A stretch of 46,398 nucleotides of DNA from Adlercreutzia sp. ZJ473 (GTDB lineage: Bacteria; Actinomycetota; Coriobacteriia; Coriobacteriales; Eggerthellaceae): contig NZ_JAAVTO010000014.1 of the NCBI RefSeq assembly GCF_013185065.1, positions 1-46,398 on the forward strand, given 5' to 3'. The notes beneath the pieces are model-generated. The model saw nothing but the letters and a program-made list of their open reading frames with translations. It did no database searches and had not been told where the DNA came from. Position 1 is the first letter of the stretch, and every line of letters starts with the position of its first letter. This document shows positions 11,285 to 43,218 of this stretch, one piece after another. The position numbers and the translations under genes were made by a program.

Positions 11285-11623
11285 TTACCCGAGCGAGTAC
11301 AGGACCTGCTTGGGCTTGGCGGCAAGCTCGGCCTGCAGCTCGTCGAGGTCGCCGTACTTCATGATCGCCGCCTGGCAGTGCTGCACGCAGGTGGGCAGCT
11401 TGCCCTTCCCCTGGCGCTCGGCGCACAGGTCGCACTGGTCGGTGAAGATCGGCATGTTGATCCACACCCACTTGTCCTCACCCTCGGAGAGCTGGTAGGG
11501 GCCGGCTTGGACCATCATGACGCCGTTCTCCCCCTTCGGGAAGTCGTGCTCGACGCGGCACGCCATCTCGCAGGCGCGGCAGCCGGAGCACCACTCGTAG
11601 TCGACAAGAATTCCCTTAGGCAT
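11285..11623 (-). CDS. Double [4Fe-4S] ferredoxin-like electron transfer subunit
   Basis: The 112-residue protein has two four-cysteine groups: CSGCRACEMAC near the start, and CDLC with CVQHC about residues 60-80. It is a shortened DmsB-like subunit, since family members usually hold four clusters in about 200 residues. It would pass electrons to the catalytic partner encoded just upstream, whose stop codon overlaps this start by 8 nt, implying translational coupling. The ATG at 11623 is chosen over the GTG at 11632 because GGAAGG lies eight bases before the ATG. No signal peptide or membrane anchor is visible. Confidence 0.88.
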   Translation of the reverse strand: MPKGILVDYEWCSGCRACEMACRVEHDFPKGENGVMMVQAGPYQLSEGEDKWVWINMPIFTDQCDLCAERQGKGKLPTCVQHCQAAIMKYGDLDELQAELAAKPKQVLYSLG

Positions 11624-13907
11624 GCTGCTCACCTTCCTCGAGCTTGTAAATCTTGCAGATGAGCGCCTTGTAGTCGGCGCCGAACCCGGAGTCGCCGGGA
11701 TGGTGGACGAGAAGGTTGTTGATGTTGAGCTTCTCGATGCCGTACAGGTCGTTCGGATCGCCCTCGGGGCGCCACCACGCGTGGTCGGCGCTCAGGATGC
11801 CGGGCTTGATGGTGGGGACGACCTTCACCTTGCTCTGGGCCCTGCCGATGGAGTTCTCCAGCCACACCCAGTCGCCGTCCTTGACGCCGTACTTCTCGGC
11901 GGTCTCGGGGTTGATCTCGACGCGCGGGTCGGGGTTCATGTCGCGCAGGCGTCCCGGATGCCGGTGCTCCGAGTGGAACATGGCCGCGTTGCGGGCGCCG
12001 GTGATGAGGATCAGCGGGTACTTCTCGAACTCCTCGGGGGTGGAGATGGGCGAGAAGGTCGGCTCCTCGTAGTAGGGCATGGGGTCGATCCGGCAGGCCT
12101 GCTCGAAGAAGTTCGAGTAGAGCTCGAGGCGCCCCGTCGCGGTCATGAAGCCCGGCTGCCCGTCGGGGCGCGCGAGGCCCTTCTCGTGCTTGCGGTACGT
12201 GAAGGGGAGGAACCCGGGCGAGACCTCCTGGAGGTCCTCGAAGGTCAGGTCACGGCCGCCCTCGACGCACATGCCGCCGAACATCTCCTCGACGGTGTCC
12301 CACGGGAACGCGGCGGGGTTCAGGCGACGGCCGATCTCGAGGACGATCTCGGGGTCCGACTTGCTCTCGCCGATGGCGTCGCAGGCCTTGTTGATGGCCT
12401 CGGCGCGCTGTATGCCGCAGCCGGCGACGATGCCGTTGCGCTCGGGGTAGGTCTGCGCGGGGAGGACCAGGTCGCACAGGGCCTGGACCGACGGCGTCAT
12501 GAACAGCTCGTTCGCGAGGATGAAGTCGAGCGTCTCGTAGGCCTTCTTCACGCGCTGGGGTTCGGCGGAGGTGCAGGTCAGGATGTTCGTCTGCATGAAC
12601 CACGCGGCGCGGGGCTTGTAGGGGACGCCCGTCTCGATGGCCTTGAGCACCTCCTCGGTGGAGGCCAGCTGCACGCCGAACGAGAGCAGCGGGTACTTGT
12701 CGATGCCCAGGCGCGCCTTGGCGGCCTTCTCGGTGACCCACTCGTTGCCGGAGGACTGGTCGGGGAGCAGGAAGGTGACGACGGGGGTCATGCCGCCGGG
12801 GACGTCGACGTAACCGCAGATCTGGTAGATGGCGCTGACGGCGTGCGCGGCGGGTATGCCCACGCGGGACATGTCGATGGCCAGGCCCATCTGGATGGCG
12901 CCGGGGCCCTGGGTGGCGAACATGCGGGCGGCCGCGCGGATCTTCTCGGGGTCGACCCAGCAGATCTCGGCCACCTTGTCGACGGGGTACTCCTGGACGC
13001 GCTCCTTCAGGGCGTCGAAGCCGTAGGTCCAGCGGTCGACGAAGTCATGGTCGTAGAGGTCCTCGTTGATGATCACGTTGAGCATGCCGAGGGCGAGCGC
13101 CGCGTCGGTCTCGGGGCGGATCTGCAGGACGATGTCGGCCTTGGTCGCGAGCCACGTGATGCGCGGGTCGACCACGATGAGCTTGCTCCCGCGCTTGAGG
13201 ACGTCGGTGAACCAGTGGCCGTAGAAGCCGTCGGCGTTCGCGACGACGGGGTTGTTGCCCCACAGGATGATGGTCTCGGGCCTGCGCCACTCGGGGTTGT
13301 CGTAGCGGTCGGGGAACTGCTGGGAGCAGTCCATGACGTAGAAGCCGCCCGCGGTGGCGAAGCCGGCGGCCATGCGCGGGATCCAGCAGGACTGGCCGTC
13401 GAGGGCGTAGCAGTAGTTCGAGCTGCCGTAGGCGTAGCAGATGCGGGTGAGGTAGGCGCTGATGTCGCGGCCGGTGCCCTGGTAGAAGCACACGGTCTCG
13501 GGGCCGTAGGTCTCCTTGATCTCGTTGAGCTTGGTGACCACGATGTCGATGGCCTCGTCCCAGCTGATGCGCTCCCACGCGTCGGGGTTGCCGCGCTGGT
13601 CGCGGGCGCGCTTCATGGGGTACTTCAGGCGGTACTCGCTGTTGACGACCTCGGGGAGGTTCAGGCAGCGGACGCAGAGGCGGCCCTGGTTGTAGGGGTT
13701 CTCGGGGTCGCCCTCCACCTTGACGAGCTTGCCGTCCTTGTCGGTGTACATGAGCACACCGCAGCCGTCATGGCAGCCGGGGCCCGACCAGCCGCTGCCG
13801 CGCGTGACGGTGAGGTCGCCTTCCTGCCACTGGTGCTCCTTGTGCACGTGAGGAACCTGGATGATTTCCTCTTTTTTGGTCAATGGCCTTCCGGGCATTT
13901 CGTCCAT
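11616..13907 (-). CDS. Molybdopterin oxidoreductase, DMSO reductase superfamily
   Basis: The 763-residue catalytic subunit begins with an iron-sulfur motif, GCHDGCGVLMYTDKDGKLVK then GRLCVRCLN, and continues with RISWDEAIDIV, YQGTGRDI, ILWGNNPVV and IVVDPRITWLATKAD, the usual bis-MGD-binding order. A Cys in QSCWIPRM lies where this superfamily places its metal ligand; this is a candidate only. The C-terminal cofactor domain has LITGARNAAMFHSEHR and VKDGDWVWLEN. There is no Tat signal and no NrfD-type membrane subunit nearby, so the enzyme is probably cytoplasmic. Related Eggerthellaceae enzymes reduce or dehydroxylate catechols and other aromatics; the substrate here is unknown. The start at 13907 follows GGAG by eight bases; the frame is open to 14066. 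Confidence 0.92.
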   Translation of the reverse strand: MDEMPGRPLTKKEEIIQVPHVHKEHQWQEGDLTVTRGSGWSGPGCHDGCGVLMYTDKDGKLVKVEGDPENPYNQGRLCVRCLNLPEVVNSEYRLKYPMKRARDQRGNPDAWERISWDEAIDIVVTKLNEIKETYGPETVCFYQGTGRDISAYLTRICYAYGSSNYCYALDGQSCWIPRMAAGFATAGGFYVMDCSQQFPDRYDNPEWRRPETIILWGNNPVVANADGFYGHWFTDVLKRGSKLIVVDPRITWLATKADIVLQIRPETDAALALGMLNVIINEDLYDHDFVDRWTYGFDALKERVQEYPVDKVAEICWVDPEKIRAAARMFATQGPGAIQMGLAIDMSRVGIPAAHAVSAIYQICGYVDVPGGMTPVVTFLLPDQSSGNEWVTEKAAKARLGIDKYPLLSFGVQLASTEEVLKAIETGVPYKPRAAWFMQTNILTCTSAEPQRVKKAYETLDFILANELFMTPSVQALCDLVLPAQTYPERNGIVAGCGIQRAEAINKACDAIGESKSDPEIVLEIGRRLNPAAFPWDTVEEMFGGMCVEGGRDLTFEDLQEVSPGFLPFTYRKHEKGLARPDGQPGFMTATGRLELYSNFFEQACRIDPMPYYEEPTFSPISTPEEFEKYPLILITGARNAAMFHSEHRHPGRLRDMNPDPRVEINPETAEKYGVKDGDWVWLENSIGRAQSKVKVVPTIKPGILSADHAWWRPEGDPNDLYGIEKLNINNLLVHHPGDSGFGADYKALICKIYKLEEGEQHA

Positions 13908-14164
13908 ACGGATTCTCCTCTCCTCTTTCCTCGTTAGGGAGGTGGCAGCGAGGCGGTTCGGCCGGCGCGATCCGCCTTTGGACGCTGCTCCTCTTGAGAA
14001 GAAGGTAATGCCGAGGGAGGTTCTCCGCATCCACGAAACAGCATGCCCCTGCGTTTTCCGGGTCATGGAAAAACCTTGATACGAGACTTTGACCTGCGAA
14101 TACTCGCGAGCTTGCCGGTCTGCGCCCTTGCGGTTTCCGACGAGGAGCGCAGACGCGGACGATG

Positions 14165-21375: not shown

Positions 21376-21477
21376 CTACCCGATGAGGTCTTGGAGCACG
21401 AACTTCCACGCGGGCTTCACCTCTATCGGGATGCCGCCCTCCTCGATGGCGCCCGATTCGCAGTTGATGACGTTACC
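21376..21477 (-). pseudogene. 3' remnant of an interrupted gene
   Basis: On the minus strand this stretch reads VGNVINCESGAIEEGGIPIE followed by VKPAWKFVLQDLIG and a TAG stop. It has the look of a genuine protein C-terminus. It is in the same frame as the DUF262 fragment upstream (21532-22122), separated by R1 and one in-frame TAA at 21532-21534. Whether it belonged to the DUF262 protein or another gene cannot be told. Confidence 0.4.
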
Positions 21478-21669
21478 GACAACGGCGCTTTTCCATCCAC
21501 CTCTCAAGTGATTCTGGATGGAAAAGGGTCGTTATCGGCGATTTCCTGGGAAAAGTGGATGCGAAAGCGCCGTTGTCGGTGGTTTTCGGGGCTCGAATCG
21601 CCGATAACGGGCGTTTTCCAGCCAGCTTTCCCGAGTTGTGGATGAAAAGAGGGCGTTGTCGGTGCTCAG
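21472..21669. repeat. R1 structured repeat, copy A
   Basis: About 198 bp made of five alternating-orientation units ending in CCGACAACG or CCGATAACG (or the complements). Internal pairings: ACCGACAACGGCGCTTTTCC plus ATCCAC (21475-21500) with 21555-21580 (two mismatches), and 21514-21543 with 21596-21625. By eye it is over 90% identical to copy C. It interrupts the DUF262 frame. Confidence 0.9.
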
Positions 21670-22122
21670 TTGAGGCGGCTTCCGCTCGCATGTCGCTAGA
21701 AGCACCGCCTCTAACGTCGCATCGTCATCGCGGGACAAGGTGAGCTTTCGGACGCCTTCGCCGGCGGCATCGTCGAGGAAAAGCATGGAGCGGATATCGG
21801 CTGGAGTCGGAATCCCGCCACTCATCTCATGCGAGTCCGCATATCGCGCAAGCGCCTCCAGAAGAAGAGTGATCGTCGTGATGCGCTGCTGCCCATCGAC
21901 GACCGACAGCCTTTCGACCCCTTCTCCGAGGTCCTCCTCCCTTGTGAGTATCACGATTCCGGAGAAATGATCCCTCTCATCTCGCGCCGCCCGATTGACG
22001 TCAAGCCAAAGCTCAGAGCACTGCCTAGGCGTCCATGAATAAACGCGCTGATAGGGCGGGATATCCAGCTTCAAGGCGGGATTTTCGAAGAAATCCATGA
22101 GGCGCATCTGCTTCACGTCCAT
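21532..22122 (-). pseudogene. DUF262-domain (GmrSD-like) protein, truncated by repeat R1
   Basis: The first about 150 residues are a good DUF262 N-terminus: FFENPALKLDIPPYQRVYSW, WLDVNRAARDERDHFSGIVI and the ParB-like nucleotide-binding motif VVDGQQRITTITLLLEALA, then LTLSRDDDATLEAVLL. At about 21670 the sequence passes into repeat R1 (from QLSTDNALF onward) and reaches TAA at 21532. Full DUF262 proteins have several hundred further residues, often with a DUF1524 HNH nuclease, and act in type IV restriction (GmrSD) and other anti-phage systems. All of that is missing, so this is a broken gene. AGGAG precedes the ATG by eight bases. Confidence 0.8.
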
Positions 22123-23360: not shown

Positions 23361-23445
23361 GTCGTTTCGTCCCCCATATCGGACAGTTTCAGCATTTTAC
23401 GTCCGGTATGGGGGACGAAGAGCGCTGAAAGCCGTCCGGTATGGG
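23361..23445. repeat. R2 repeat, copy 2
   Basis: Three units: TCGTCCCCCATATCGGAC (reverse), GTCCGGTATGGGGGACGA (forward, 23401-23418) and GCCGTCCGGTATGGG (23431-23445). The first two form an inverted pair around a TTTCAGCATTTTAC loop. It lies between the queG-like promoter and R1 copy B. Confidence 0.7.
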
Positions 23446-23457
23446 CGAGTGCCAACA

Positions 23458-23682
23458 ATACCGACAACGCCGTTTTTCCATCCACCTCTCAGGTGATCCT
23501 GGATGCAAAACGCCCGTTATCGGCGATTTCTCGGGGAAAGTGGCTGCGAAAGCGCCGTTGTCGATGGTTTTCGGGGCTCGAATCGCCGATAACGGGCGTT
23601 TTGCATCCAGCTTTCCAGAATCGTGGATGAAAAAAGGGCGTTGTCGGTGCTCAGGACGAAAAGGGGTCGTTGTCGGTTGCTC
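23458..23682. repeat. R1 structured repeat, copy B (extended)
   Basis: Same unit order as copies A and C, with one extra terminal unit (GGACGAAAAGGGGTCGTTGT to 23675). Its central arms 23499-23528 and 23581-23610 are a perfect 30-nt inverted repeat. Relative to copy A, GATGC/GCATC replaces TGGAA/TTCCA at the same paired position, a compensatory change. It ends 28 nt before the stop of the MoxR-like gene. Confidence 0.9.
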
Positions 23683-23709: not shown

Positions 23710-25329
23710 CTAGTGCTTCTTGCCCTGGGCGTTCGAGTCGGACAGCCCCATTCCGACGGCGCTGCCCATGTCGAGCGCCTGCGTCTCGAGGAGCTGCGCC
23801 TCCTTGATCTCGCTCATGATGTCGGTCAGGTCGCGAACGCGCGTCCTCAGGTTCTCGCGGGCCTCGTCCACCTTGAGCTCGCCGCTCCTCTCGTAGTACG
23901 CGTCGCTTCCGAAGTACGAGATGAACTGCGTCGTGATGTTCCTCGTACTCAGCTCGGCAAGGAACATGATCATCTCGCGGCCGTTGCCGAAGCTCTCCTC
24001 CACGAACTTGATGCCGTTCTCGAGCTTCTGCTGGGCTTGCTTGACCAGCGGCTCGATGGCGTCAACCTCCTCGCGGTAGGTTTGGCTCACCACTGCGAAC
24101 GCCGCGCTGCCCGACTCGACTCCCTCCACGGAACACGCTCCTGCGATGCTGCGGATCTTGCGGAAGAAGAGCTTTTCGCCGCGCACGAAGTCCTTGACGG
24201 CGGTGCCCGCCGCGACCTTGCGCTCAAGCTCGGCCTCGCGCTCGCGCAAGGGCGCGAGCACCGCCGTCTCCACCGTCTGGCCTTCCAGCAGCTTCGGCTT
24301 CGCGGTCCTCAGCTCGTCGCGCAGCGCCAGCACGAGCTTCTGCTGGTCGAGCGCTTTCGAGCACTGCGCGGAGAGCGCGTCCAGGATCAAGCTGAGGAGG
24401 GCCACGCGCTCGTCGAACGGGGCGTCTTTGGCGCGGTTGACCACGTCCAGGCTCGCGTCCCCGTCAAGCACCTGGCTGATCTGGTAGTCCGAGCGGTACT
24501 TCTCGAACAGGGTGTAGTACACGGAGAAGCGGTCCGCGATGTCCTCGTCGCGCAGGAACTGGGAGAAGAGGACGTCGTTGCATGCGACCCCCGACTCCTC
24601 GTAGAGCGATATGACCTTCGCGAGGTCCTCCCACCCGCGCGCGGTGACGAAGCTCTTGCCTCCGCCCGGCTTCGACTCGACCTTGTAGAAGCAGTCGGGC
24701 TTGGCTTGCAGGAACGACGTGACGACGGGGTGGATGCCCTTCTCGGCGGCGTAGCGCCCCCAGACGGCGTAGTCGGGCTCCACGTCCAGCTCGCGCAGGC
24801 GGTCCAGGATCACGATGTCGAACTCGTGGACCGACCTGTTGTACTCGGGCGGGTTGCCGGCGCACACCACCACCCAGTTGTCGGGCACCTTGTGGCGCCC
24901 GAACGTCTTGAACTGGAGGAACTGCAGCATGGAGGGGTAAAGCGTCTCCGACACGCAGTTGATCTCGTCCAGGAAGAGGATGCCGCGCTCCTCGCCGGTG
25001 GCCTCCATGTAGTCGTATATCGCGCCCACGATCTCGCTCATCGTGTACTCCGAGGCGTCGTACTCCAGCCCCTTGAACTTGCGGTGGACTATGTGGGGCA
25101 GGCCGAGCGCGCTCTGGCGCGTGTGGTGGGTCATAGAGTACGAGACTAAGCCGATCTGCAGCTCTTGGGCGATCTGCTCGATGATGGCGGTCTTCCCGAT
25201 GCCGGGGGCGCCGACGAGGAACATCGGGCGCTGCCGCTCCGGCTCGATGATGTACATGCCCGCGTCATCTCGCCTGAGGTAGGCGTTCACGGTCTCCTTG
25301 ATCTGCTTTTTCGCTGTGGCGATGTCCAT
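23710..25329 (-). CDS. MoxR-like AAA+ ATPase
   Basis: The 539-residue protein has an N-terminal AAA+ module: Walker A GAPGIGKT (40-47), HHTRQSALGLPHI, Walker B ILFLDEINC (117-125), FLQFKTFGRHKVPDNW and sensor-1 VVVCAGNPPEYN. SFVTARGWEDLAKVI (about 220-235) resembles the MoxR sensor-2/lid region. The C-terminal half (about 280-539) is mainly charged helices with no named domain. MoxR ATPases remodel or activate partner proteins together with VWA-domain proteins, and the upstream gene (9-nt gap) encodes exactly that. It is the last gene of the TetR-LRR-VWA-AAA operon; R1 copy B begins 28 nt after its stop. Confidence 0.88.
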   Translation of the reverse strand: MDIATAKKQIKETVNAYLRRDDAGMYIIEPERQRPMFLVGAPGIGKTAIIEQIAQELQIGLVSYSMTHHTRQSALGLPHIVHRKFKGLEYDASEYTMSEIVGAIYDYMEATGEERGILFLDEINCVSETLYPSMLQFLQFKTFGRHKVPDNWVVVCAGNPPEYNRSVHEFDIVILDRLRELDVEPDYAVWGRYAAEKGIHPVVTSFLQAKPDCFYKVESKPGGGKSFVTARGWEDLAKVISLYEESGVACNDVLFSQFLRDEDIADRFSVYYTLFEKYRSDYQISQVLDGDASLDVVNRAKDAPFDERVALLSLILDALSAQCSKALDQQKLVLALRDELRTAKPKLLEGQTVETAVLAPLREREAELERKVAAGTAVKDFVRGEKLFFRKIRSIAGACSVEGVESGSAAFAVVSQTYREEVDAIEPLVKQAQQKLENGIKFVEESFGNGREMIMFLAELSTRNITTQFISYFGSDAYYERSGELKVDEARENLRTRVRDLTDIMSEIKEAQLLETQALDMGSAVGMGLSDSNAQGKKH

Positions 25330-25338
25330 GGGGGCTCC

Positions 25339-27057
25339 TTAACTCAGTTTGCTCTTGAAGCGGTTGATTCCTTCTTTGTCGATCAGGACGCGCATGGCCC
25401 AAGGGGGCACTTTGGGGATGTAGTTGTCGCCTTCGTCGAGGAACACGAACGCCGTGTCGTAGTCGGGCACCTTCTCGGGGAAGTCGCCGATCCCGTCTGT
25501 GAAGTAGATGATGCCCTTCAGGTCGGACAGCTCGCCGTCCCGCCTCAGCTTGTCGACGTAGCTGAAGGCGGGGCGGAAGTCGGTGCCGCCCATTCCCCGT
25601 ATGGTGAAGCTCTCCATGAGCCTGTCGACGTCGCGCAAGTCGCCTATCTTCGTGTCGGACTGCACTTTCGCGTCGCACTGTATGACGTGGATGTTCACCT
25701 CGTGCGAGCAGTCCTCCTGCTTCTTCAGGATGTTGAACGTGTGCTCGACGAACTTCTTGACGAGCTCTCCCTCGCATGATTCGGACGTGTCGATGCAGAT
25801 GGCGAAGTCGCGGATGCGGTTCGTCTCCTTGTACTCGAGGGGCTCGACGAGCGGCATGTTCCCGTACAGCTTGAGCCCGTAGGTGTAGAAGACGTAGTCG
25901 AACTCGTCGTCGTTGATCTTCATCTCCTCGGAGAGGGAGGCGAAGCGGCGCAGGAAGTCGGAGTAGTCGGTCTTCTTCCTGTTGGCTGCGGACAGCAGCT
26001 TGGTGAAGCCGCCCGCCTCGCAGCCCCACGACGCCGAGAAGGTCTCCAAGTCGGTCTCCACCTGCTTGGCCAGCTCCTCCCAGCTGCGCTCCTCCTCGTT
26101 CTCCTCGGGGTCTCGCGTTGACTCGTCGACCTCGTCGCGAGGATCGTCCGCCTCGCCCGCCTCGGCGTCGCCGCGCTCGCCATCCTCGTCCTTTGCGCCG
26201 GAATCGGAGCTCTCCGAGGTGTTCGGGGCGTCTTCGCCGTCCATGCCGTCGGCGTCGTCGTCTGACGTGCTGCTGTCGTCCTGCCCCTCGGAAAGGTCGT
26301 ACACGTCCTGGCGCTGCTCGTCTTGCGACGACGAGTCCCCGCCCGAGCCGCTGTCCCTGCCGTCGGACTCGCGCTTGTCGTCGGAGCTCTCGACGGTGCA
26401 GCTGTCATCGTCGGGGAGCTCCGTCTTCAGCTGCGGCTTGTACGAGGGCCATCCGCGGTGGTAGTCGCGCTCGAACAGCGCGTGGAGCTCGTTCAGCCGG
26501 GCCCCTCTCACCCTCAGCTCAGCCGGGCCCCGGGCCCACCTGAGCGAACGCGTGAAGAGGCCGTACAGGTTGCCGGGCGTGAGCTTTCCCCCGCAGAGGC
26601 CGCGCAGCTCCTCCAGGGCGGCTTTGCGCTCCCCGTCGAGGGGGCTCGCGAACCGCTTCCCGCAAAGCTCCATGGCGGCATGTTCCGCCAAGACATCGCA
26701 GACGAGCCACCATGCCTCGGTGTTCCCGCGGGTCGTGTCGTAGGGGTGGCGAAAGAGGCAGTGCATGATGGAGTGCAGGTAGTCGCGCACGACCTCGTTG
26801 AACCCAGCGTCGAAGCGCCCTATCACCGTGTAGGGGTCGTAGTAGACGTACGTCCCGTCAACGGCCAGCGCGTACCGTCCGATGTTCTCCGTGAGCCGGG
26901 GCTCCATCTTCCAGAGCGCGACGTCGAGGAAGCGGAACTTCATCATGAGCTGGACGCGGGCTTCGTCGACTATCTCCAGCGCTATGCGCTGGGCCTGCTC
27001 GAAGCGGTCCTCTTCGTCTTGCAGCTTCTGCGGAGAGCTGCTGGATGGGGCGGTCAT
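25339..27057 (-). CDS. DUF2201-type protein: degenerate metallopeptidase-like domain plus VWA domain
   Basis: About 572 residues. The N-terminal domain has HSIMHCLFRHPYD (about 94-106) where DUF2201 proteins carry HExxH, so the catalytic Glu is replaced by Ser and zinc peptidase activity is unlikely. Residues about 210-330 are a long Asp/Glu/Ser-rich linker. The C-terminal VWA-like domain has a complete MIDAS: CIDTSES (about 417), GMGGTDFRPAF (about 487) and YFTDGIGDFP (about 518). It should bind a metal and be the partner of the MoxR-like ATPase. Start at ATG 27057, 20 nt after the LRR gene; an in-frame TTG at 27072 is possible. The ribosome site is weak, suggesting coupling to the LRR gene. 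Confidence 0.85.
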   Translation of the reverse strand: MTAPSSSSPQKLQDEEDRFEQAQRIALEIVDEARVQLMMKFRFLDVALWKMEPRLTENIGRYALAVDGTYVYYDPYTVIGRFDAGFNEVVRDYLHSIMHCLFRHPYDTTRGNTEAWWLVCDVLAEHAAMELCGKRFASPLDGERKAALEELRGLCGGKLTPGNLYGLFTRSLRWARGPAELRVRGARLNELHALFERDYHRGWPSYKPQLKTELPDDDSCTVESSDDKRESDGRDSGSGGDSSSQDEQRQDVYDLSEGQDDSSTSDDDADGMDGEDAPNTSESSDSGAKDEDGERGDAEAGEADDPRDEVDESTRDPEENEEERSWEELAKQVETDLETFSASWGCEAGGFTKLLSAANRKKTDYSDFLRRFASLSEEMKINDDEFDYVFYTYGLKLYGNMPLVEPLEYKETNRIRDFAICIDTSESCEGELVKKFVEHTFNILKKQEDCSHEVNIHVIQCDAKVQSDTKIGDLRDVDRLMESFTIRGMGGTDFRPAFSYVDKLRRDGELSDLKGIIYFTDGIGDFPEKVPDYDTAFVFLDEGDNYIPKVPPWAMRVLIDKEGINRFKSKLS

Positions 27058-27077
27058 GGCATCACCAGGCAATCTGT

Positions 27078-29705
27078 CTACAGGTCATAGTCGAATACGC
27101 TCTCCGAGCACATCAGGCGCTTCGTCTCCAGGAGATGGGCTGACGTCGCGGCGTCGCGCAGGGCGGTGACGCGCTCGATTATCTCGTCGATGTTGCCGGG
27201 GTTCACGTAGCCTCGGTCCACGAGCTCGTCGAAGGTGGCTCGGTCGTCGTGCAGGGCGACGTCGACGCTGATCTCCACGATGTTGTTGCGGACGATCCGC
27301 TCCAGCGACGTCCTGTTCGCGCCGGTGAGCATGAACGGGTCCTCGAACCTGTCGAGGATCAGCCTCACCTGCTCATAGGCGCTGATGTCGTCCTTCTTGT
27401 CGCGCGTGATGGCGAAGCTGTGCGCGTTCGCCAGGCATATGTCGAGCTGCTCCACGATGCCGGGCACGTTCACCCAGTTCGCGCCTCCAAGGCCGACCGA
27501 GATCCCGCGGATGCCGCTTTGCGTGTTGGGGAAGCAGAAGTCGAAGACGCGCCTGCCCTCCAGGGGCTCCGCGAGCTCGACGTGGATGCGCTCTATCCAG
27601 CATCTTGTCGACAGGCCGCTCGAGCCGATGACCTTGAGGCTGGGGTTCAGGGACAAGAGCTCTATCCCGCGGGCGTTGTTGAACGCGTAGTCCTCGACCC
27701 TCACGATCTCGTCGGGGAAGACCACCTCCGGCTCAGAGCCGACGTAGATGATGACGGAGTCGCCGCGCTCCGACCTTCTGCACAGCATTCCGCATGCCAG
27801 GTAGAAGGCGTCGTTCGCGGGGGACACGTCGACGCGCGCAAGGGACGGCACGCCTCTCCCGTAATGCGCCCCCTCCGTCACCAGGGCTCGGTCTCCCAGC
27901 GACTCCAAGCTCGCGGGTATGCGGACCTCCTCGAGGTTCGTGTCGAAGAACGCCTCGTCCCCGATGGTCTGCACGGAGTCGGGGAGGCTCACGTGCCGCA
28001 GGTTCTTGCACACCCTGAACGCCGACTCCCCGATGCTGCGGACCGTGTCCGGGATGCGCACGCGCGTTATGCGGTCATGGAAGGCGAAGGCCATCGGCTC
28101 GATCGCGACGGCGCCGTCGTAGACGCTGTAGATCTCCTTCTCCGCGTCGATGAGCTGCACGAGGTGGATCCCGTCGGCCTCTCTCCGGTAAAGCCCCCCT
28201 TCTCCGTCGTAGAACTGGTCCTTCGAGCGCTCGTCGACGAAGAACGTGCAGCGAGGACCCGAGTGCACGATGTTGGTGCCCCTCGTCACGGAGGCCCCGA
28301 TGTGCTTGACCGTGGCGGGGATGGTCAGGCTGTCCAGCGACGACCCTCGAAACGCCGAGCCTCCGATTGACTCGAGCCCCTCGTTCAAGACGGCCTCATG
28401 GAGCTGGGCGCAGTAGAAGAACGCCTTGTCCTCGATGCTCTTGAGGGACGAGGGCGCGACGAATCTCCGCATGCCGGTGTCGGAGAAGGCGAACGGGCCT
28501 ATCGTGGTGACCGAGTCCGGCAGCGAGACGCGCTCCAGGCTCTTGAATCCGTGGCAGCACTTCTCGCCTATGACCTCGCATCCCTGCGCTACGGAGAGCT
28601 CCTCCCGGGGGCATGCGAGGGCGATCATCTGCTTGAGGTCGGCGGAGTAGAGCGCGGAGCCGTCGGTGGTGATGAACGGGTTCTCCGCGCTCACGACGAC
28701 CTCCGCGAGGTCAGACCCCTGGAGGGCGCCTGCGTCGACGGCTCGAACGGCCCTCCCGATGACGAGCTTCTTGAGCTTTCCGCTGCTGAGGACGCCCCTC
28801 CTGATCCTCTCGAGCCCTCCGGGAAGCACGAGCTCCTCAAGATGGGGGCATTGGTCGATCCAGCTCGCGTCAAAGTCGGAGGCGCTCTTCGGCAGGACGA
28901 GCCTTCTCAGGTTCGCGTTGCGCCGAAAGGCCCCGCTGCCTATCGTGTCGATGCCGTCCGCGCAGACGATCTCCTCTATCAGGGAGTTGCCGGAAAGGGC
29001 GCTCGACGCTATCGCGAGGACGGGCGCGCCCTCTATCTCTGCCGGGACGCTCAGCGCGCGCGTCGCGGCCTTGATGCCGGTGATCTGCGCGAAAGAGCCG
29101 TCTATCACCACGTAGCGCCAGACGGCGCCGTCCGGGGCCTCGAACATGCGCTCGCCCGACCTGCTTCCCCGCACGGACCCCCGCTCGCGGCGGCTGAAGC
29201 TGACGCGCTTGTCGCCGATCTCCGCGATCTCCTTGAGCTGGGTGTCGCTCAGCGCTATCGCGGCTCCGCTGTCTGAGAAGCCCGTCGGGATCATGGACGG
29301 GAATACCAGCCTGCTTCGGTCGCCTTCCTCCACGACGTGGGGCCCCGCATAGGGCTCGGCAGCGGACTCGTCCGGCTCTAGGGCCGCCTGCTCGTTCGCT
29401 CGCACGTTGCCGGCGATGTCGAATTGCCGGTTCGGCTCTATCACCTCGGAGTAGAGGACGCAGTACCTCAGCCCCTTGAGGGTCGCGCGCACGTTCGCAA
29501 CGGGGAAGCTGCCGTGATGGAGGACTTCGCAGGCGAGAAGCCCGCGGGCGATCATCTCCTGGTACGCCTCGCTGCCCTCAAGCGCCGACAGGGGCATGTC
29601 GGTCGACTGCGTGCGCATGTTGTCTTGTCTGAGCGAGATGTTGTACAGGAGCACCTCGCGGTCTTCGGAAAGCCGTCCTTCGGCCAAGATCTCCTCATCG
29701 AGCAT
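27078..29705 (-). CDS. Cytoplasmic BspA-type leucine-rich-repeat protein
   Basis: The 875-residue protein has no signal peptide and no membrane segment. Residues about 1-200 are of unknown type. From about 215 to 690 it is a series of LRR_5 (BspA-like) repeats such as RVSLPDSVTTIGPFAFSDTG, RVRIPDTVRSIGESAFRVCK, HVSLPDSVQTIGDEAFFDTN and VRIPASLESLGDRAL. The last 180 residues leave the repeat pattern and are helical. BspA repeats are usually on surface adhesins, so a cytosolic one inside an AAA/VWA operon is unusual and suggests a recognition or scaffold role. ATG 29705 follows AAGGAG by about 11 bases and lies 18 nt after the tetR stop; the VWA gene follows after 20 nt. Confidence 0.85.
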   Translation of the reverse strand: MLDEEILAEGRLSEDREVLLYNISLRQDNMRTQSTDMPLSALEGSEAYQEMIARGLLACEVLHHGSFPVANVRATLKGLRYCVLYSEVIEPNRQFDIAGNVRANEQAALEPDESAAEPYAGPHVVEEGDRSRLVFPSMIPTGFSDSGAAIALSDTQLKEIAEIGDKRVSFSRRERGSVRGSRSGERMFEAPDGAVWRYVVIDGSFAQITGIKAATRALSVPAEIEGAPVLAIASSALSGNSLIEEIVCADGIDTIGSGAFRRNANLRRLVLPKSASDFDASWIDQCPHLEELVLPGGLERIRRGVLSSGKLKKLVIGRAVRAVDAGALQGSDLAEVVVSAENPFITTDGSALYSADLKQMIALACPREELSVAQGCEVIGEKCCHGFKSLERVSLPDSVTTIGPFAFSDTGMRRFVAPSSLKSIEDKAFFYCAQLHEAVLNEGLESIGGSAFRGSSLDSLTIPATVKHIGASVTRGTNIVHSGPRCTFFVDERSKDQFYDGEGGLYRREADGIHLVQLIDAEKEIYSVYDGAVAIEPMAFAFHDRITRVRIPDTVRSIGESAFRVCKNLRHVSLPDSVQTIGDEAFFDTNLEEVRIPASLESLGDRALVTEGAHYGRGVPSLARVDVSPANDAFYLACGMLCRRSERGDSVIIYVGSEPEVVFPDEIVRVEDYAFNNARGIELLSLNPSLKVIGSSGLSTRCWIERIHVELAEPLEGRRVFDFCFPNTQSGIRGISVGLGGANWVNVPGIVEQLDICLANAHSFAITRDKKDDISAYEQVRLILDRFEDPFMLTGANRTSLERIVRNNIVEISVDVALHDDRATFDELVDRGYVNPGNIDEIIERVTALRDAATSAHLLETKRLMCSESVFDYDL

Positions 29706-29723
29706 CAGCGGTTCTGCTCCTTC

Positions 29724-30437
29724 TCATGCGCGCGGCTGCGCTTTCGCGCTCGGCGCCGGGTTCGCCGGGTTCTGCTTTGGGCTGGCTGCCATGGCGTCGG
29801 ACAGCCTCGCCTTGAGCTCGTCGAGCGAAGGGGCGTCAGAGCTCCTGTCGTCGAGCTCCCCGTTCGGGTCGAACGGCCCGTCGACGCCGTCGTGAAACGC
29901 CTTGAGTATCTGAATCGACTTCAAGGGAACGTCTATGTCGAAGTCCTGCTTGATCGAGTAGTACATCAGCTCGTAGAAGCCGCCCCATACTTCGATGACG
30001 TGCTGAGATCGGGACTCGAACTCCGGGCGGCTGGGGTCTAGGTTCTCCAAGCCCCACTCGTAGTGCCCGCGCATCAGCTCATCTGCCAGGGCGCGGTCCT
30101 TGAGTATGTCGTAGAGGAGAAGGCGGCCGCCGTTTTTGCTGAGCAGATAGCCGTAGTAAAGGCAGCCGATGCGGTGCGCGTCCAAGTAGCTCAGGCGCGT
30201 CGGGCCCCCGTATTCGACGATGCCGAGCATGTCGGCGATGGTCGACAGGAGCCCGTTCAGGTACTCGACGGCGAAGTCCATCTTGCGCGGGTAGTAGTGC
30301 TGGACGAGGGCCCGTGAGATGCCGGCCTCCTCGGCCACGAGCTGATACGAGGTCGCATCAAGGCCCCTGGTGACAAGGCTCTTTTGGATCACGGCCTCTA
30401 AGCGCTTCCGCAGCTCAGGGTTTTTGGTTCGAGGCAT
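29724..30437 (-). CDS. TetR-family transcriptional regulator
   Basis: The 237-residue protein has a TetR helix-turn-helix: RLEAVIQKSLVTRGLDATSY, QLVAEEAGISRALVQHYYPR, KMDFAVEYLNGL. The rest is an all-helical ligand/dimerisation domain, ending in a Pro/Ala-rich tail from about residue 215. It is first in the four-gene operon, directly behind a promoter with a palindromic operator, so autorepression and control of the whole system are likely. ATG 30437 follows AAAGG by six bases; the frame continues to 30473 without homology. The inducer cannot be predicted. Confidence 0.9.
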   Translation of the reverse strand: MPRTKNPELRKRLEAVIQKSLVTRGLDATSYQLVAEEAGISRALVQHYYPRKMDFAVEYLNGLLSTIADMLGIVEYGGPTRLSYLDAHRIGCLYYGYLLSKNGGRLLLYDILKDRALADELMRGHYEWGLENLDPSRPEFESRSQHVIEVWGGFYELMYYSIKQDFDIDVPLKSIQILKAFHDGVDGPFDPNGELDDRSSDAPSLDELKARLSDAMAASPKQNPANPAPSAKAQPRA

Positions 30438-30476
30438 GCCCAGCCTTTCGGGTCGTTTTCTATATGCTTTCACGTT

Positions 30477-30504
30477 ATGATAGCTATACGCGTATAGTTG
30501 TCAA
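30477..30504 (-). promoter_or_regulatory. Promoter with embedded palindromic operator for the TetR-LRR-VWA-AAA operon
   Basis: On the minus strand: -35 TTGACA (30504-30499, consensus), 16-bp spacer, -10 TATCAT (30482-30477). The spacer contains the perfect palindrome CTATACGCGTATAG (30484-30497), extended to 10 of 12 matched bases per half. A repressor bound here would block RNA polymerase. It is about 40 bp before the tetR start. Confidence 0.8.
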
Positions 30505-30546
30505 TAGGGAAAACTCTACTCAGCCCCCCTCGTGCGGAAAGACAGC

Positions 30547-30580
30547 AAGCGGGCGGCGAGGATGTTCCCGCCGCCCGCTT
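30547..30580 (-). terminator. 12-bp hairpin downstream of the second ferredoxin/molybdoenzyme operon
   Basis: AAGCGGGCGGCG (30547-30558) pairs exactly with 30569-30580 over 10 nt; on the minus strand it is followed by GCTGTCTTT. A second perfect 12-bp hairpin, CGCTCTCGCGCC at 30601-30612 with 30623-30634, lies next to it. The rest of 30438-30739 contains short CCGTCATGCC near-repeats and no gene. Confidence 0.6.
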
Positions 30581-30739: not shown

Positions 30740-31156
30740 CTATCGTGCCGTGGCGTACTCGACGGCCGCGCGCGTGGCCTCGCCGGCGTCGTCAAGCGAC
30801 CACACCTTGGCGCCGCGCCCCTCCACGCGGGCCTTCGCCTGCGCATAGGCGCTCTCGGCGTCCGCGTCGTCGCCGAGGGCGAGCGCCTGCGTCGGGCAGT
30901 CCATCACGCAGAACGGCAGCTCTCCGGCCGCGACGCGGGGCGCGCAGAACGTGCAGCTCGGCAGGTAGATCGGCTGCCACCACATGTGCAGGTCGGGGTA
31001 GGCGCCGGCCGGCCGGTCGATGCCGATGCCCGAGCCGTGCGTCTTCACCTCCACGCGATACTCGTCGTCGTCCAGGTGGTTGCCCACCTTGCAGCCCATC
31101 GCGCAGGTCCAGCAACCAATGCAGCGGTCGATGTCGACCAACATCTTGCATGCCAT
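30740..31156 (-). CDS. Double [4Fe-4S] electron transfer subunit
   Basis: The 138-residue protein has two four-Cys groups, CIGCWTCAMGC near the N-terminus and CTFC with CVMDC about residues 70-90. The CVMDCPTQAL segment is typical of DmsB-like subunits. The C-terminal 40 residues (Ala/Glu-rich, helical) have no cofactor motif. It begins 4 nt after the stop of the molybdoenzyme gene, with AAGGAGG ahead of the ATG, so the two are one operon. It has the same reduced two-cluster plan as the ferredoxin at 11285-11623, but the two are only distantly similar. Confidence 0.88.
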   Translation of the reverse strand: MACKMLVDIDRCIGCWTCAMGCKVGNHLDDDEYRVEVKTHGSGIGIDRPAGAYPDLHMWWQPIYLPSCTFCAPRVAAGELPFCVMDCPTQALALGDDADAESAYAQAKARVEGRGAKVWSLDDAGEATRAAVEYATAR

Positions 31157-31160
31157 GGCT

Positions 31161-33548
31161 CTATGCCTCCTTGCCAGCGTACTTGCGAATGTTGCACCAA
31201 GAGTCCCAGTAGCAGTCGGTCGAGCCCGTGAGCGAGCTCATCGACTCCACGTAGGGGTTGGGGTGATGCCCGGCGGCCAGCCAGTCGGCGAACCACTTGT
31301 CCTCGAGCGGCCCCTGCGAGTCCTGTCCTGCGCACTGGGCCGTGATCTCGGCGTACGTGCCCTCCTCGAACTGGCGGCGGCGCCAGCCGAACCACACGTG
31401 CACGGTGCCCTCGGGGATGCTCTCGTCCAGGTCGAGGCGCGTCACCACGTGCCCGCGGTCGTTGTACACCTCCACCTTGTCGTTCTGCGCCAGGCCCGCG
31501 CGCTCGGCGTCGGCCGGGTTCAGGCGCGTGGCCGGCGTCTCGCCCGAGAGCTTCACGGTGATGGGGTCGTCGGTGAAGCTCGACTGCATGAAGAAGCGCT
31601 GGCGACCGGTGAACAGCTGGTACGGATAGTCCTTCGACTTGCCGATCTTGTTCGGCTCAAGCACGCGCGTCGTCGCCATGCCCAGGTCGGCGAGCTTCTC
31701 TGCGTAGATGATCTCCATGCGCCCCGTCTCGTTGTCGAGCACTTCCGCGGGGTTGAGGTACGGCGTGTACTTCGGCTCGGGCGGCGCGGCGGCACGGATG
31801 ATCTTCTCCTCCTTGAGGCGCGCGTAGGTGACGGGCGGCTGGATGCCTGCCACCAGCGGGTACTTCGTCTGCAGGCGGATGTCGATGTACTCGGGGATGG
31901 ACAGGGTGAAATAGTCGCCGAGGCCCACGCGCTTCGCGAGCTCGCTGAACACCCACACGGGCTCGTGGCCGTCGACCTGCGGCTCGATGGCCGGCTCCTG
32001 CAGGATGAGGTGGTTGTAACACGCGCCGGTGATGAGGTCCTCGCGCTCGAACGACATGAGGTCGGGCAGCACGTAGTCGGCGATCTCACCGGTGTCGGTG
32101 AGCCACACGTCGTAGTCCACCACCAGCTCCATGTCGCGCACCACGTCGAGCCAGCGCTGGCGGTCGGGCTGCTGGTGCACGGGGTTGCCGCTGCATACGA
32201 TGAGCGCCTTGTACGGGCTGTCGTCAGCCTCGGCGGCGGCGAACCACTGCGCCATGCGCACGGGCACCGACTTCACGTTCGCCGCGCCGTCGGGGCAGCT
32301 GATCGGCGCGTCGTTGAACACCAGGGGCCAGCTCTGCAGCTGCAGGGCCTCGAAGACGCCGCTCTTCGGCTTGCCGAGGCGGCCCGTCAAGCACCCGAGC
32401 AGCAGGAACTGGCGGTACGTCTCGTTGGAGTTGCGGTAGCGCAGGCCGTAGCCGCTCAGGATGAAGGCGTTCTCGGCCTCCACCCAGTCGCGCGCGAGGC
32501 GCTCGGCGTCCGCGGCCGAGATGCCGCACTTCTCGGCGGCCAGCTCGAACGTGTACTCCGCCGAGGAGTCCTTCAGCTTCTGCAGCGCCGTGGTGAGGCC
32601 GCGCCCGTCAACCTGGTAGGCGCCGAGCAGCTGCACGTCAGCGCCCTCGGGGTAGTCCCCGCGCTTGGGCGCAACGGGAACGGGCGCGCCTGACGTCGCG
32701 TCCCACACGAGGAAGTTGTTCTCCGCGTCGCGCGCGAGCTGGCCCGTCTCGTCGTCGACGAGGTAGGCCGCGATGGAGCGCGCCAGCAGGTAGTCGTTCG
32801 CCTGCAGGTCGTTCTGCAGGATGTAGCTCACCATGGCCATGGCGAGGTAGCCGTCGCTCGCCGGCTTCATGCCCACGAACTCGTCGGCGAACCCGGCCGT
32901 GCCGTCGAAGATGAGGCCCAGGTCGACGATGCGTGCCCCCGCTTCGCGCGCACGCACGAGGTTCTGGGCGCAGCGCATCTGGTTCTCGATGGGGTTGCAG
33001 CCCCACACGTAGATGAGGTCGGTGCCCACCATGATGCGCGGGTCGACCACCGTGCGCGGGAACTCGCTGCCCGCGTTGTAGAACTCGGCGTAGAACGGCC
33101 CGTTGTCGAGGCCGATGGACCCGAGCGGCACCGTGACGCCGAACGTGTTGGCGAAGCGGAACGGCATGAGGTTCTCGAAGCTGTACTGCGCGGGCACGCC
33201 GGCGCCGAGGTTCCACAGCACCACCGAGGAGGCGCCGTAGGTGTCGCGGACGTGGCACAGCTTCTCGCCGATTTCGTCAAGCGCCTGGTCCCAGCTGATC
33301 TCCTCCCACTGGCCGCCTCCGCGCTCGCCGACGCGCTTGAGCGGCTTTTGCAGGCGCTTCGGGTCGTACGGCTGGCGCCCGGCAAGGCATCCTTTCTGGC
33401 AGATGTGCCCGTCGGGCTCCTCGGGGGCCGAGTAGACGATGCGCTCCATGCGCTCGATCTTGCCATCCTTCACGATGGTCTTGAGCGCGCAGTAGTCATG
33501 GTCTCCCCAGCCAGGACATGCGGTGTATACGAAAGACTCTTCCGCCAT
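31161..33548 (-). CDS. Second molybdopterin oxidoreductase, DMSO reductase superfamily
   Basis: The 795-residue subunit starts with an atypical cluster motif, ACPGWGDHDYCALKT then GHICQKGCLAG (eight residues between the first two Cys instead of two or three). Family segments follow: WEEISWDQALDEIGEKL, VVLWNLGAGVPAQYSFENLM, LIYVWGCNPIENQMR and the C-terminal cofactor domain from about residue 650 (LFTGRQRFFMQSSF, NPADAERAGLAQNDKVEVYN, WFGWRRRQFEEG). No Tat signal is present and no membrane subunit is nearby. Sequence features differ enough from the enzyme at 11616-13907 to suggest a different substrate. GAGGAG lies 5-6 bases before the ATG. An HSL-type esterase upstream on the same strand may supply the substrate (inference). 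Confidence 0.9.
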   Translation of the reverse strand: MAEESFVYTACPGWGDHDYCALKTIVKDGKIERMERIVYSAPEEPDGHICQKGCLAGRQPYDPKRLQKPLKRVGERGGGQWEEISWDQALDEIGEKLCHVRDTYGASSVVLWNLGAGVPAQYSFENLMPFRFANTFGVTVPLGSIGLDNGPFYAEFYNAGSEFPRTVVDPRIMVGTDLIYVWGCNPIENQMRCAQNLVRAREAGARIVDLGLIFDGTAGFADEFVGMKPASDGYLAMAMVSYILQNDLQANDYLLARSIAAYLVDDETGQLARDAENNFLVWDATSGAPVPVAPKRGDYPEGADVQLLGAYQVDGRGLTTALQKLKDSSAEYTFELAAEKCGISAADAERLARDWVEAENAFILSGYGLRYRNSNETYRQFLLLGCLTGRLGKPKSGVFEALQLQSWPLVFNDAPISCPDGAANVKSVPVRMAQWFAAAEADDSPYKALIVCSGNPVHQQPDRQRWLDVVRDMELVVDYDVWLTDTGEIADYVLPDLMSFEREDLITGACYNHLILQEPAIEPQVDGHEPVWVFSELAKRVGLGDYFTLSIPEYIDIRLQTKYPLVAGIQPPVTYARLKEEKIIRAAAPPEPKYTPYLNPAEVLDNETGRMEIIYAEKLADLGMATTRVLEPNKIGKSKDYPYQLFTGRQRFFMQSSFTDDPITVKLSGETPATRLNPADAERAGLAQNDKVEVYNDRGHVVTRLDLDESIPEGTVHVWFGWRRRQFEEGTYAEITAQCAGQDSQGPLEDKWFADWLAAGHHPNPYVESMSSLTGSTDCYWDSWCNIRKYAGKEA

Positions 33549-34739: not shown

Positions 34740-34961
34740 CTTCTCCTCCTCAAGTAGGTTGCCTCGCATGGCTTTGCCATGCGCTTTGATTATGGCACAT
34801 TTGCAAAACAGGGGGAGTGCACCGTGCAGAGGAGGGCGTTAGCGCAGGTCGAACATGCCGCGAATTCAGCCGGGGATGGCGTTCGTGGATGCGTCGTCGG
34901 CGTAGCCGCTGGCGTAGCTGACAACGCTGCTGACAGCGCTATCGAAAACGTAGCCGACAAC

Positions 34962-35159
34962 GTTACCGACAACGGCGCTTTTTCATCCACCTCCCAAGTG
35001 ATTCTGGATGGAAAGGGGTCGTTGTCGGCGATTTCCTGGGAAAAGTGGATGCGAAAGGCCCGTTGTCGGTGGTTCTCGGGGCTCGAATCGCCGATAACGG
35101 GCGTTTTCCAGCCGGCTTTCCCGAGTTGTGGATGAGAAAGGGGCGTTGTCGGTGCTTCG
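34962..35159. repeat. R1 structured repeat, copy C
   Basis: Same length and unit order as copy A, with roughly a dozen substitutions by eye. Just upstream (34914-34961) are extra degenerate unit ends (GTAGCTGACAACG, GTAGCCGACAACG), as if the element has grown by short duplications. The whole stretch 34740-35282 has no gene. Confidence 0.9.
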
Positions 35160-41105: not shown

Positions 41106-41783
41106 ATGGCGAGAACCTATGAGGTCCAAGGGCTCTGCGTTGACGTGAGGTACCTGGTGATGGGCCCCATCCAGAACAACGTGTACATCATCTCGGACGG
41201 GCGGGGCACGATGGTGGTCGACCCGTCGTGCGATGCCGAGCGCATCGTGGAAGCCCTTGGCGGCGCGCGCCTCGACGCCATCGTCATCACGCACGCGCAC
41301 TGGGACCACACCGACGGCGCCGCCGACCTGCGCGCGCTCACGGGCGCGCCGGTGATCGCGTCGGCGGTCGACGCGCCGTCGGTGGAGCAGCCGCGCGACG
41401 ACACCGGCACCTCGCACACGGCGGTCCCGTGCGAGGTCGACCGCACCGTGGGGAACGGCGACGTGGTCGAGGTGGGCGGCATGAAGTGGAAGGTGATCTC
41501 CACGCCGGGGCACACCAAGGGCTCGATCTGCCTGTTCATGGTGCCGCAGTTCGGCAACCACGCCGACGGGCTGCCCGTGCTCGTCTCGGGCGACACGCTG
41601 TTCGCCGGCACGGTGGGGCGCACCGACTTCGCGGGCGGGTCTTTGTCCGACATGGCGGCGAGCGTGAGGAAGCTCGCGAAGCTCCCCGACGACGTGGCGG
41701 TGCTGCCCGGGCACAACGACCTCACCACCATAGGGGCCGAGAGGCGCCGCATCTTCGCGCGCTTCGGCTGGGAGCCCGAGTAG
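41106..41783 (+). CDS. MBL-fold metallohydrolase (glyoxalase II-like)
   Basis: The 225-residue protein has the metallo-beta-lactamase motif THAHWDHTDG (HxHxDH, about residues 62-68), preceded by GTMVVDPSCDAERIVEALGG, then VISTPGHTKGSICLFM with the next metal His, SGDTLFAGTVGRTDF with the bridging Asp, and LPGHNDLTTIGAERRRI with the last His. All metal ligands are present. This subgroup includes glyoxalase II and related thioesterases; the substrate is unknown. It starts 6 nt after rel, an arrangement common in Actinobacteria and Firmicutes. Confidence 0.9.
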   Translation: MARTYEVQGLCVDVRYLVMGPIQNNVYIISDGRGTMVVDPSCDAERIVEALGGARLDAIVITHAHWDHTDGAADLRALTGAPVIASAVDAPSVEQPRDDTGTSHTAVPCEVDRTVGNGDVVEVGGMKWKVISTPGHTKGSICLFMVPQFGNHADGLPVLVSGDTLFAGTVGRTDFAGGSLSDMAASVRKLAKLPDDVAVLPGHNDLTTIGAERRRIFARFGWEPE

Positions 41784-42162: not shown

Positions 42163-43218
42163 GTGACCATCGAGTGGACCCTTTTCCTTTCTGAACTCAT
42201 GCAGAACCCGCTTCTTCTGGTGGTCACGCTGCTCAACATAGGCGTCATCGTGGTCAACGGGGCGACCGACGCCCCCAACGCCATCGCGACGGTGGTCTCC
42301 ACGCGCGCCATGAAGCCCAAGCACGCCATCGTCATGGCTGCCATCTGCAACTTCTTCGGGCTGCTGCTCGTCTCGCTCGTGACGTCGGCCGTCGCCCACA
42401 CCATCTTCTCCATGGTCGACTTCGGCGGCGACGCCCAGCAGTCGCTCATCGCGCTCATGGCCGCCATGGTGGCCATCATCGTGTGGGGCACGGTGGCCTG
42501 GTACTTCGGCATCCCCACCTCGCAGAGCCATTCGCTCATCGCGGGCCTCACCGGCGCGGCCATCGCGCTGCAGGGCAGCTTCGACGCCATCAACGGCGCC
42601 GAGTGGATCAAGGTCATCTACGGCATCCTGCTCTCCACGCTTCTCGGTTTCGGCCTGGGCTGGCTGTTCTACCAGATCATCAGCCGCGCCTTCCGCAACG
42701 CGAACCGCAGGAGCGCCAACAAGTTCTTCCGCTGGGCGCAGATCGCGGCGGGCGCGGGCGTGGCGTTCATGCACGGCGCGCAGGACGGCCAGAAGTTCAT
42801 GTCGATCTTCGTGCTGGCCATCTCGCTGGCGCTCGGCATGGGCACGAGCGCCGAGTCGATGGTGCTGCCGGTGTGGCTCATGGTGTTCTGCGCGTTGAAC
42901 ATGGGCCTCGGCACGGCGGTCGGCGGCGAGCGCATCATCAAGAGCGTCGGCGTCGACATGGTGAAGCTCGAGTCGTTCCAGGGCTTCGCGGCAAGCCTCT
43001 CCACGTGCGTGAGCCTCGTGCTCGCCACGTTCGGCGGCCTGCCGGTGTCCACCACGCACACCAACACCACGGCCATCATGGGCGTGGGCGCGGCGAAGAA
43101 CCCCAAGGGCGTGAAGTGGAGCATCGCCATCGACATGGTGAAGACCTGGGTCCTGACCTTCCCCGGCTGCGGCATCCTGGGGTTCGCGTGCGCGAAGCTG
43201 TTCCTCTTCATCCTGTAG
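42163..43218 (+). CDS. pit: PiT-family inorganic phosphate transporter
   Basis: The 351-residue membrane protein is of PiT/PHO4 type and imports phosphate with a cation. It carries the duplicated family signature: VNGATDAPNAIATVVSTRAM near the start and FMHGAQDGQKFMSIFVLAIS in the middle, each with the essential Asp, and the matching PTSQSHSLIAGLTGAAIA and PVSTTHTNTTAIMGVGAAKN segments. About ten helices are seen. The start is GTG 42163 with GGAAGGA before it. It is followed by the PhoU-like gene after 39 nt and preceded by Pho-box-like repeats, so it is probably phosphate regulated. Confidence 0.93.
   Translation: MTIEWTLFLSELMQNPLLLVVTLLNIGVIVVNGATDAPNAIATVVSTRAMKPKHAIVMAAICNFFGLLLVSLVTSAVAHTIFSMVDFGGDAQQSLIALMAAMVAIIVWGTVAWYFGIPTSQSHSLIAGLTGAAIALQGSFDAINGAEWIKVIYGILLSTLLGFGLGWLFYQIISRAFRNANRRSANKFFRWAQIAAGAGVAFMHGAQDGQKFMSIFVLAISLALGMGTSAESMVLPVWLMVFCALNMGLGTAVGGERIIKSVGVDMVKLESFQGFAASLSTCVSLVLATFGGLPVSTTHTNTTAIMGVGAAKNPKGVKWSIAIDMVKTWVLTFPGCGILGFACAKLFLFIL

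Follow-up and report, generated by a model that had tools for sequence, protein, structure and literature searches.

An LRR-VWA-AAA+ gene unit recurring in gut bacteria of two phyla, a possible MoxR-type remodelling machine for metalloenzyme assembly, with a TetR-linked, relocated copy in Adlercreutzia

The genes for an LRR protein, a VWA protein and a MoxR-like AAA+ ATPase in a 46,398-nucleotide stretch of DNA from Adlercreutzia sp. ZJ473 (the window) belong to a true conserved unit found in gut bacteria of two phyla. The unit is read here, with about an even chance of being right, as a three-component MoxR-type remodelling machine for metalloenzyme assembly, the window copy being TetR-controlled and relocated. 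Assembly of metalloenzymes is regarded as likelier than virus defence because relatives of the unit are repeatedly built into oxygen-sensitive metal-enzyme operons. Many relatives are encoded with a metalloenzyme operon, but the window cassette is not, its molybdenum neighbour being incidental. A literature search of incomplete coverage found no published description of the unit. The features of the cassette are as follows:

29724-30473, minus strand: TetR-family regulator, 249 aa (Pfam TetR_N, 24.6 bits)
27078-29705, minus strand: LRR protein, 875 aa (Pfam LRR_5, 193 bits)
25339-27072, minus strand: VWA/DUF2201 protein, 577 aa, TTG start (Pfam DUF2201, 40.6 bits; DUF2201_N, 23.3 bits)
23710-25329, minus strand: MoxR-like AAA+ ATPase, 539 aa (Pfam AAA_22/AAA/AAA_5, about 35 bits)
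23725-30532: cassette of four genes, one block common to congener G028 (92% identity over 6.8 kb)
30477-30504, minus strand: sigma-70-like promoter TTGACA-16-TATCAT (11/12 match) with palindrome CTATACGCGTATAG, directly before TetR
30547-30580, minus strand: hairpin resembling an intrinsic terminator, lying between the cassette and the 4Fe-4S/molybdoenzyme genes upstream of it, a consensus match only

A reading of the sequence alone had proposed a regulated TetR-LRR-VWA-AAA stress or defence machine at an accessory locus. The recurrent LRR-VWA-AAA unit, the sensor or adaptor role of the LRR protein and the accessory nature of the locus are supported; TetR as a core component and the defence function are not. 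The four co-directional genes are all called on the minus strand, in the order TetR, LRR, VWA, AAA, with Pfam domains that match their proposed identities. The gaps between them are 18, 5-20 and 9 nt, the middle value varying because the VWA protein may start at the TTG at 27072 (5-nt gap) or at an in-frame ATG 15 nt (five codons) later, for which the originally given 20 nt holds.

In the AAA+ protein, where the AAA_5 domain scores 33.9 bits (cut-off 22), the Walker A (GAPGIGKTAI) and Walker B (LFLDEIN) motifs are intact, as had been noted, and invariant in 16 relatives. Midasin was the only solved structure reached by a profile of this protein. The window protein is without the methyltransferase domain that is fused to the AAA protein in most relatives and that is present on it or in a neighbouring gene at 37 of 51 loci. 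This ArsM/UbiE-like methyltransferase is fused to the AAA C-terminus or encoded by the adjacent gene in most clade members, as at L064:13479-15803. The VWA protein, with DUF2201 and DUF2201_N matches above their cut-offs of 26.4 and 23.2 bits, is laid out as a helical N-terminal domain, a disordered acidic linker (residues 215-318) and a C-terminal VWA domain; fold look-ups of its model covered the VWA domain (414-573) and not the N-terminal domain. Its MIDAS (DTSxS, T497-D498 and D526) is complete and invariant in relatives, and its HExxH motif is broken, both features having been seen already from the sequence: the catalytic Glu is absent from 28 of 28 sequences and both His are invariant (HxxxH). 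Without that Glu the protein would not be expected to act as a zinc metallopeptidase.

Among 138 Eggerthellaceae genomes, nearly all loci with a long LRR homologue also have the VWA and AAA genes in identical order and strand, and three LRR genes (L049-L051) stand alone. The window genome carries a second LRR-VWA-AAA triad on another contig (C99). A VWA profile (E 1e-20 or better), run against 396 genomes sampled across the phylum, matched in Eggerthellaceae only, and an AAA profile matched many Clostridia in a wider species collection. In most clostridial loci the VWA gene lies directly before the AAA gene, with a repeat protein beside the pair. With an iterated profile, a relative of the LRR C-terminal region was found within three genes of AAA/VWA at 126 of 144 loci, many of the remaining ones being short contigs or having short flanks; low-scoring matches may lack the C-terminal domain, since plain LRR repeats may be picked up as well, and the counts are not of independent genomes since the loci were obtained by two partly overlapping routes. 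The third component stands at gene distance 1 in 54 of 104 positions in Eggerthellaceae and 57 of 123 in Clostridia, and at none of these positions was it beyond gene distance 5 from AAA/VWA. Gene calls in the GC-rich relative loci were based on codon usage. LRR, VWA and AAA genes form a recurrent co-directional unit, and therefore the proposed co-occurrence in other genomes holds, in strict order in Eggerthellaceae and with a relative of the C-terminal region in Clostridia. Many loci have several different LRR proteins, and in some Clostridia several of them lie around one VWA-AAA pair. At L112 and L048 two different triads lie back to back on opposite strands, and L112 has a molybdenum enzyme and an intact 4Fe-4S gene beside the second triad.

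The LRR protein comprises an N-terminal domain (residues 1-95), a disordered linker (104-149), a BspA-type LRR region (180-725), a helical domain (729-865) and a disordered tail (866-875, peptide KRLMCSESVFDYDL) ending in FDYDL. Its predicted structure has a mean pLDDT of 87, and the best Foldseek matches (4gt6, 4cp6 and 4fs7) identify a BspA-like solenoid. No convincing match for the N-terminal domain was found in Pfam or in PDB sequence searches, and a winged helix, which its order of helices and strands resembles, is a candidate fold. The tail was counted over 70 non-redundant third components (32 from Eggerthellaceae, 38 from Clostridia). The form [DE]-[FYWML]-x-[LIF] ends 30 of the 32 Eggerthellaceae proteins, where it may be summarised as D-[FY]-x-L-like, versus 1.2% of 1763 other proteins; the clostridial proteins have the strict form in 6 of 38 and a looser form in 29 of 38, against a 6% background. 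Conservation of an exposed, disordered tail suggests a binding motif. For NorD, the MIDAS has been suggested as the binding site for acidic residues of the target, NorB (PMC9976466), and the acidic LRR tail may by analogy reasonably be seen as a MIDAS ligand. The LRR partner is probably an adaptor, and the conserved partner domain and tail fit the sensor or adaptor role that had been suggested for it.

A DMSO-reductase-type molybdoenzyme gene lies directly upstream of the unit at 30 of 51 loci. The conserved order in Eggerthellaceae is molybdenum enzyme, ferredoxin-like protein, 94-aa protein, N-domain gene, LRR, VWA and AAA, so that what is the N-terminal domain of the window LRR protein is a separate gene in the molybdoenzyme operon of relatives; this N-domain gene also occurs there without the triad (L072, L092). 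Acetylene hydratase is the closest of the solved structures to the linked molybdenum enzyme, which together with its ferredoxin-like subunit is without the usual cluster cysteines that a sister clade retains. In the gene pair exemplified by L080:6112-8463, L062:8006-8365 and relatives, N-terminal Fe-S cysteines are missing from the acetylene-hydratase-like enzyme, and nearly all cluster cysteines are lost from the ferredoxin-like subunit that follows. The enzyme may therefore be a molybdoenzyme that is non-redox or free of Fe-S, its ferredoxin subunit being a relic. The cysteine-less ferredoxin-like subunit (L044:7487-7846 and relatives) ends in F-[QR]-L or W-Q-L, which resembles some third-component tails (FQL, FAL) and may be a coincidence.

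Xanthine-dehydrogenase and Hyp contexts were each found in a single lineage. In three Clostridia loci (L132, L161 and L186), genes for the FAD, 2Fe-2S and Mo subunits of the xanthine-dehydrogenase family, scanned in L132 and assigned by similarity in the other two, are followed by VWA, LRR and AAA and then by one or more small genes and trigger factor; their VWA proteins are 45-56% identical and the hosts are divergent. In three species of one genus (g38), hypF, hypC and hypD precede LRR, VWA and AAA. Radical-SAM genes occur at 11 of the 51 loci, trigger factor at 15 and FKBP at 16. Each single molybdoenzyme adjacency weighs less because Eggerthellaceae are unusually rich in such enzymes. The recurrence of molybdoenzyme, hydrogenase-maturation, radical-SAM, trigger-factor and FKBP partners points to enzyme assembly.

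In the proposed machine, the AAA protein would act as a hexamer pulling on its VWA partner, and the LRR protein would be bound through its acidic tail by the MIDAS metal of that partner. The client would be held by the LRR surface and, in Eggerthellaceae, also by the fused or adjacent N-terminal domain. ATP hydrolysis would then open the folded apo-enzyme for insertion of the metal cofactor or exchange of a partner subunit, as has been proposed for NorQD and CoxDE. A MoxR-VWA-adaptor machine analogous to these two, used in several lineages, is the most likely reading. CoxD and CoxE act in assembly of the Mo-Cu cluster (PMC4240915), and like them the MoxR AAA+ and VWA genes at L132, L161 and L186 follow a molybdenum hydroxylase operon. 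The cox cluster as described is however without an LRR third component, most loci here have a DMSO-reductase-type molybdenum enzyme or none, and the likeness drawn here is one of gene layout. NorQ-NorD, which serves iron insertion into cNOR, shares with the present system the layout of the VWA protein (N-terminal domain, disordered linker, C-terminal MIDAS domain) and an acidic patch that the MIDAS presumably binds; there the acidic residues belong to the target itself, whereas here a separate adaptor with an acidic C-terminal tail is proposed. RavA-ViaA, also a MoxR-VWA pair, has anaerobic respiratory enzymes as its targets; it has no LRR protein and its AAA family is distinct from that of the window.

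Tentatively, the units may represent a new MoxR-VWA class in which LRR or ankyrin-like adaptors share a C-terminal docking domain and a MIDAS-plugging tail of D-[FY]-x-L type, so that swapping of adaptors would redirect the motor to different metalloenzymes. It bears on how MoxR-VWA pairs choose their clients that this motor family has a dedicated, easily recognised adaptor with a short conserved tail; client selection is therefore testable by peptide binding and by a single deletion. The hosts are gut bacteria that rely on many molybdoenzymes, and the unit likely supplies a maturation factor so far missing for the abundant metalloenzymes of the gut by which compounds from diet and host are transformed.

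A general or stress chaperone or disaggregase, not dedicated to metalloenzymes and with LRR proteins binding various unfolded or surface-exposed clients, is thought rather unlikely. A metalloenzyme neighbour is missing at most of the clostridial copies, which counts against the main reading, and most Lachnospiraceae units lie among unrelated housekeeping genes, as would fit such a chaperone; the trigger factor and FKBP genes close by and the several different LRR proteins at many loci agree with this. It does not account for metalloenzyme contexts of three unrelated kinds in which the gene order is conserved, nor for an N-domain common to the LRR protein and the molybdoenzyme operon. That the LRR protein is itself the client, which the AAA-VWA pair would fold, assemble or release, is given a low probability. 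Several LRR proteins do cluster round one VWA-AAA pair in some Clostridia, and only the LRR or repeat protein is nearly always linked; the metalloenzyme operon contexts would be left unexplained, and the highly confident structure prediction for the LRR region shows an ordinary solenoid.

MoxR-vWA ternary systems have been proposed in conflict, in VMAP, iSTAND, FtsH and beta-propeller classes (PMC7159879), and an anti-phage system of this kind, with the LRR protein as invader sensor, is a version of the defence function originally suggested; it is considered improbable. A MoxR protein, a vWA protein and a variable third component, with repeats in the beta-propeller class, are common to both, the cassette is sporadic and relocated, and the DUF262 genes close to 8 of the 51 loci would be in keeping with a defence island. 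The bpMoxR model scores just under its cut-off of 27, at 23.0 bits in the window and 26.1 for L064. Against this, an LRR third component is in none of the four described classes, and the partners here are metalloenzymes and other metabolic and proteostasis genes. PADLOC matched no specific family over most of the protein, giving only partial P-loop matches (IetA, E 2.5e-6, residues 6-62) and a single 13.7-bit match in the linker. The VWA protein has no effector domain, and neither displaced effectors nor variable effector arrays were found at the unit loci. Carriage by phages or plasmids was rejected, as the only matches were to distant MoxR proteins or to fecal contigs that are short and unannotated. 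Phage records such as MT839739.1 and MT837937.1 (short human fecal 'Bacteriophage sp.') encode the VWA protein and look like bacterial DNA.

The window cassette lies in an accessory locus, as had been supposed: 21.1-30.7 kb of the window is missing in two congeners that keep the flanks. The flanks, at ~21099 and ~30739, are separated by 118 bp in G028 and by about 180 bp in G029. In G028 all four cassette genes (84-96% identity) form one block at another site of the chromosome, where it is flanked by homologues of window 41106-41783 and 42163-43218, which are adjacent in the window. Since the block lies elsewhere in G028 and the window site is empty in both congeners, the cassette is a discrete relocated unit. 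A homologue of the window molybdoenzyme (31161-33548) adjoins an epimerase gene in both, with the cassette absent. These two empty sites led to rejection of this enzyme as the client and mark it as a coincidental neighbour; with about 43 molybdoenzymes in the window genome, chance adjacency is likely. The 4Fe-4S/molybdoenzyme pair (30740-33548) is not part of the cassette. A second molybdoenzyme and 4Fe-4S gene pair lies at 11616-14066 and 11285-11632.

In an AAA tree (quick method, LG+G4), TetR and radical-SAM types form one clade (100), nested in a group with Mo-operon types (SH-aLRT 99). Both types are without the methyltransferase, and their N-domain is mostly fused to the LRR protein. Because its clade nests inside the Mo-operon group, the window cassette most likely goes back to a unit linked to a molybdoenzyme, a link that was lost later.

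A TetR homologue is present at the unit only in the window, G028 (84%) and G135 (82%), and no close homologue was found elsewhere among 21 relatives, G028 excepted; TetR is thereby rejected as a core component, contrary to the sequence-only reading. The single promoter predicted there was found just before TetR and is strong. Its palindrome CTATACGCGTATAG is perfect over 14 nt and nearly kept as CTATACGTGTATAG at the same position in G028, and it is naturally seen as a candidate TetR operator. TetR probably autoregulates the cassette, as a local addition to the unit. Around the hairpin at 30547-30580, terminator-like consensus matches are fewer in the real region than in its shuffles.

The terminal repeat described after the AAA gene is present, and proved not to be specific to the operon, since this 208-nt element with long inverted arms (23444-23651) has further copies in the window (21459-21666 and 34949-35156) and many in G028. 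It was rejected as the operon's own repeat in favour of a dispersed genomic element, possibly of a MITE- or REP-like family. The adjacent DUF262 remnant is real: a truncated DUF262 (GmrSD_N) gene at 21532-22122 runs into the dispersed repeat.
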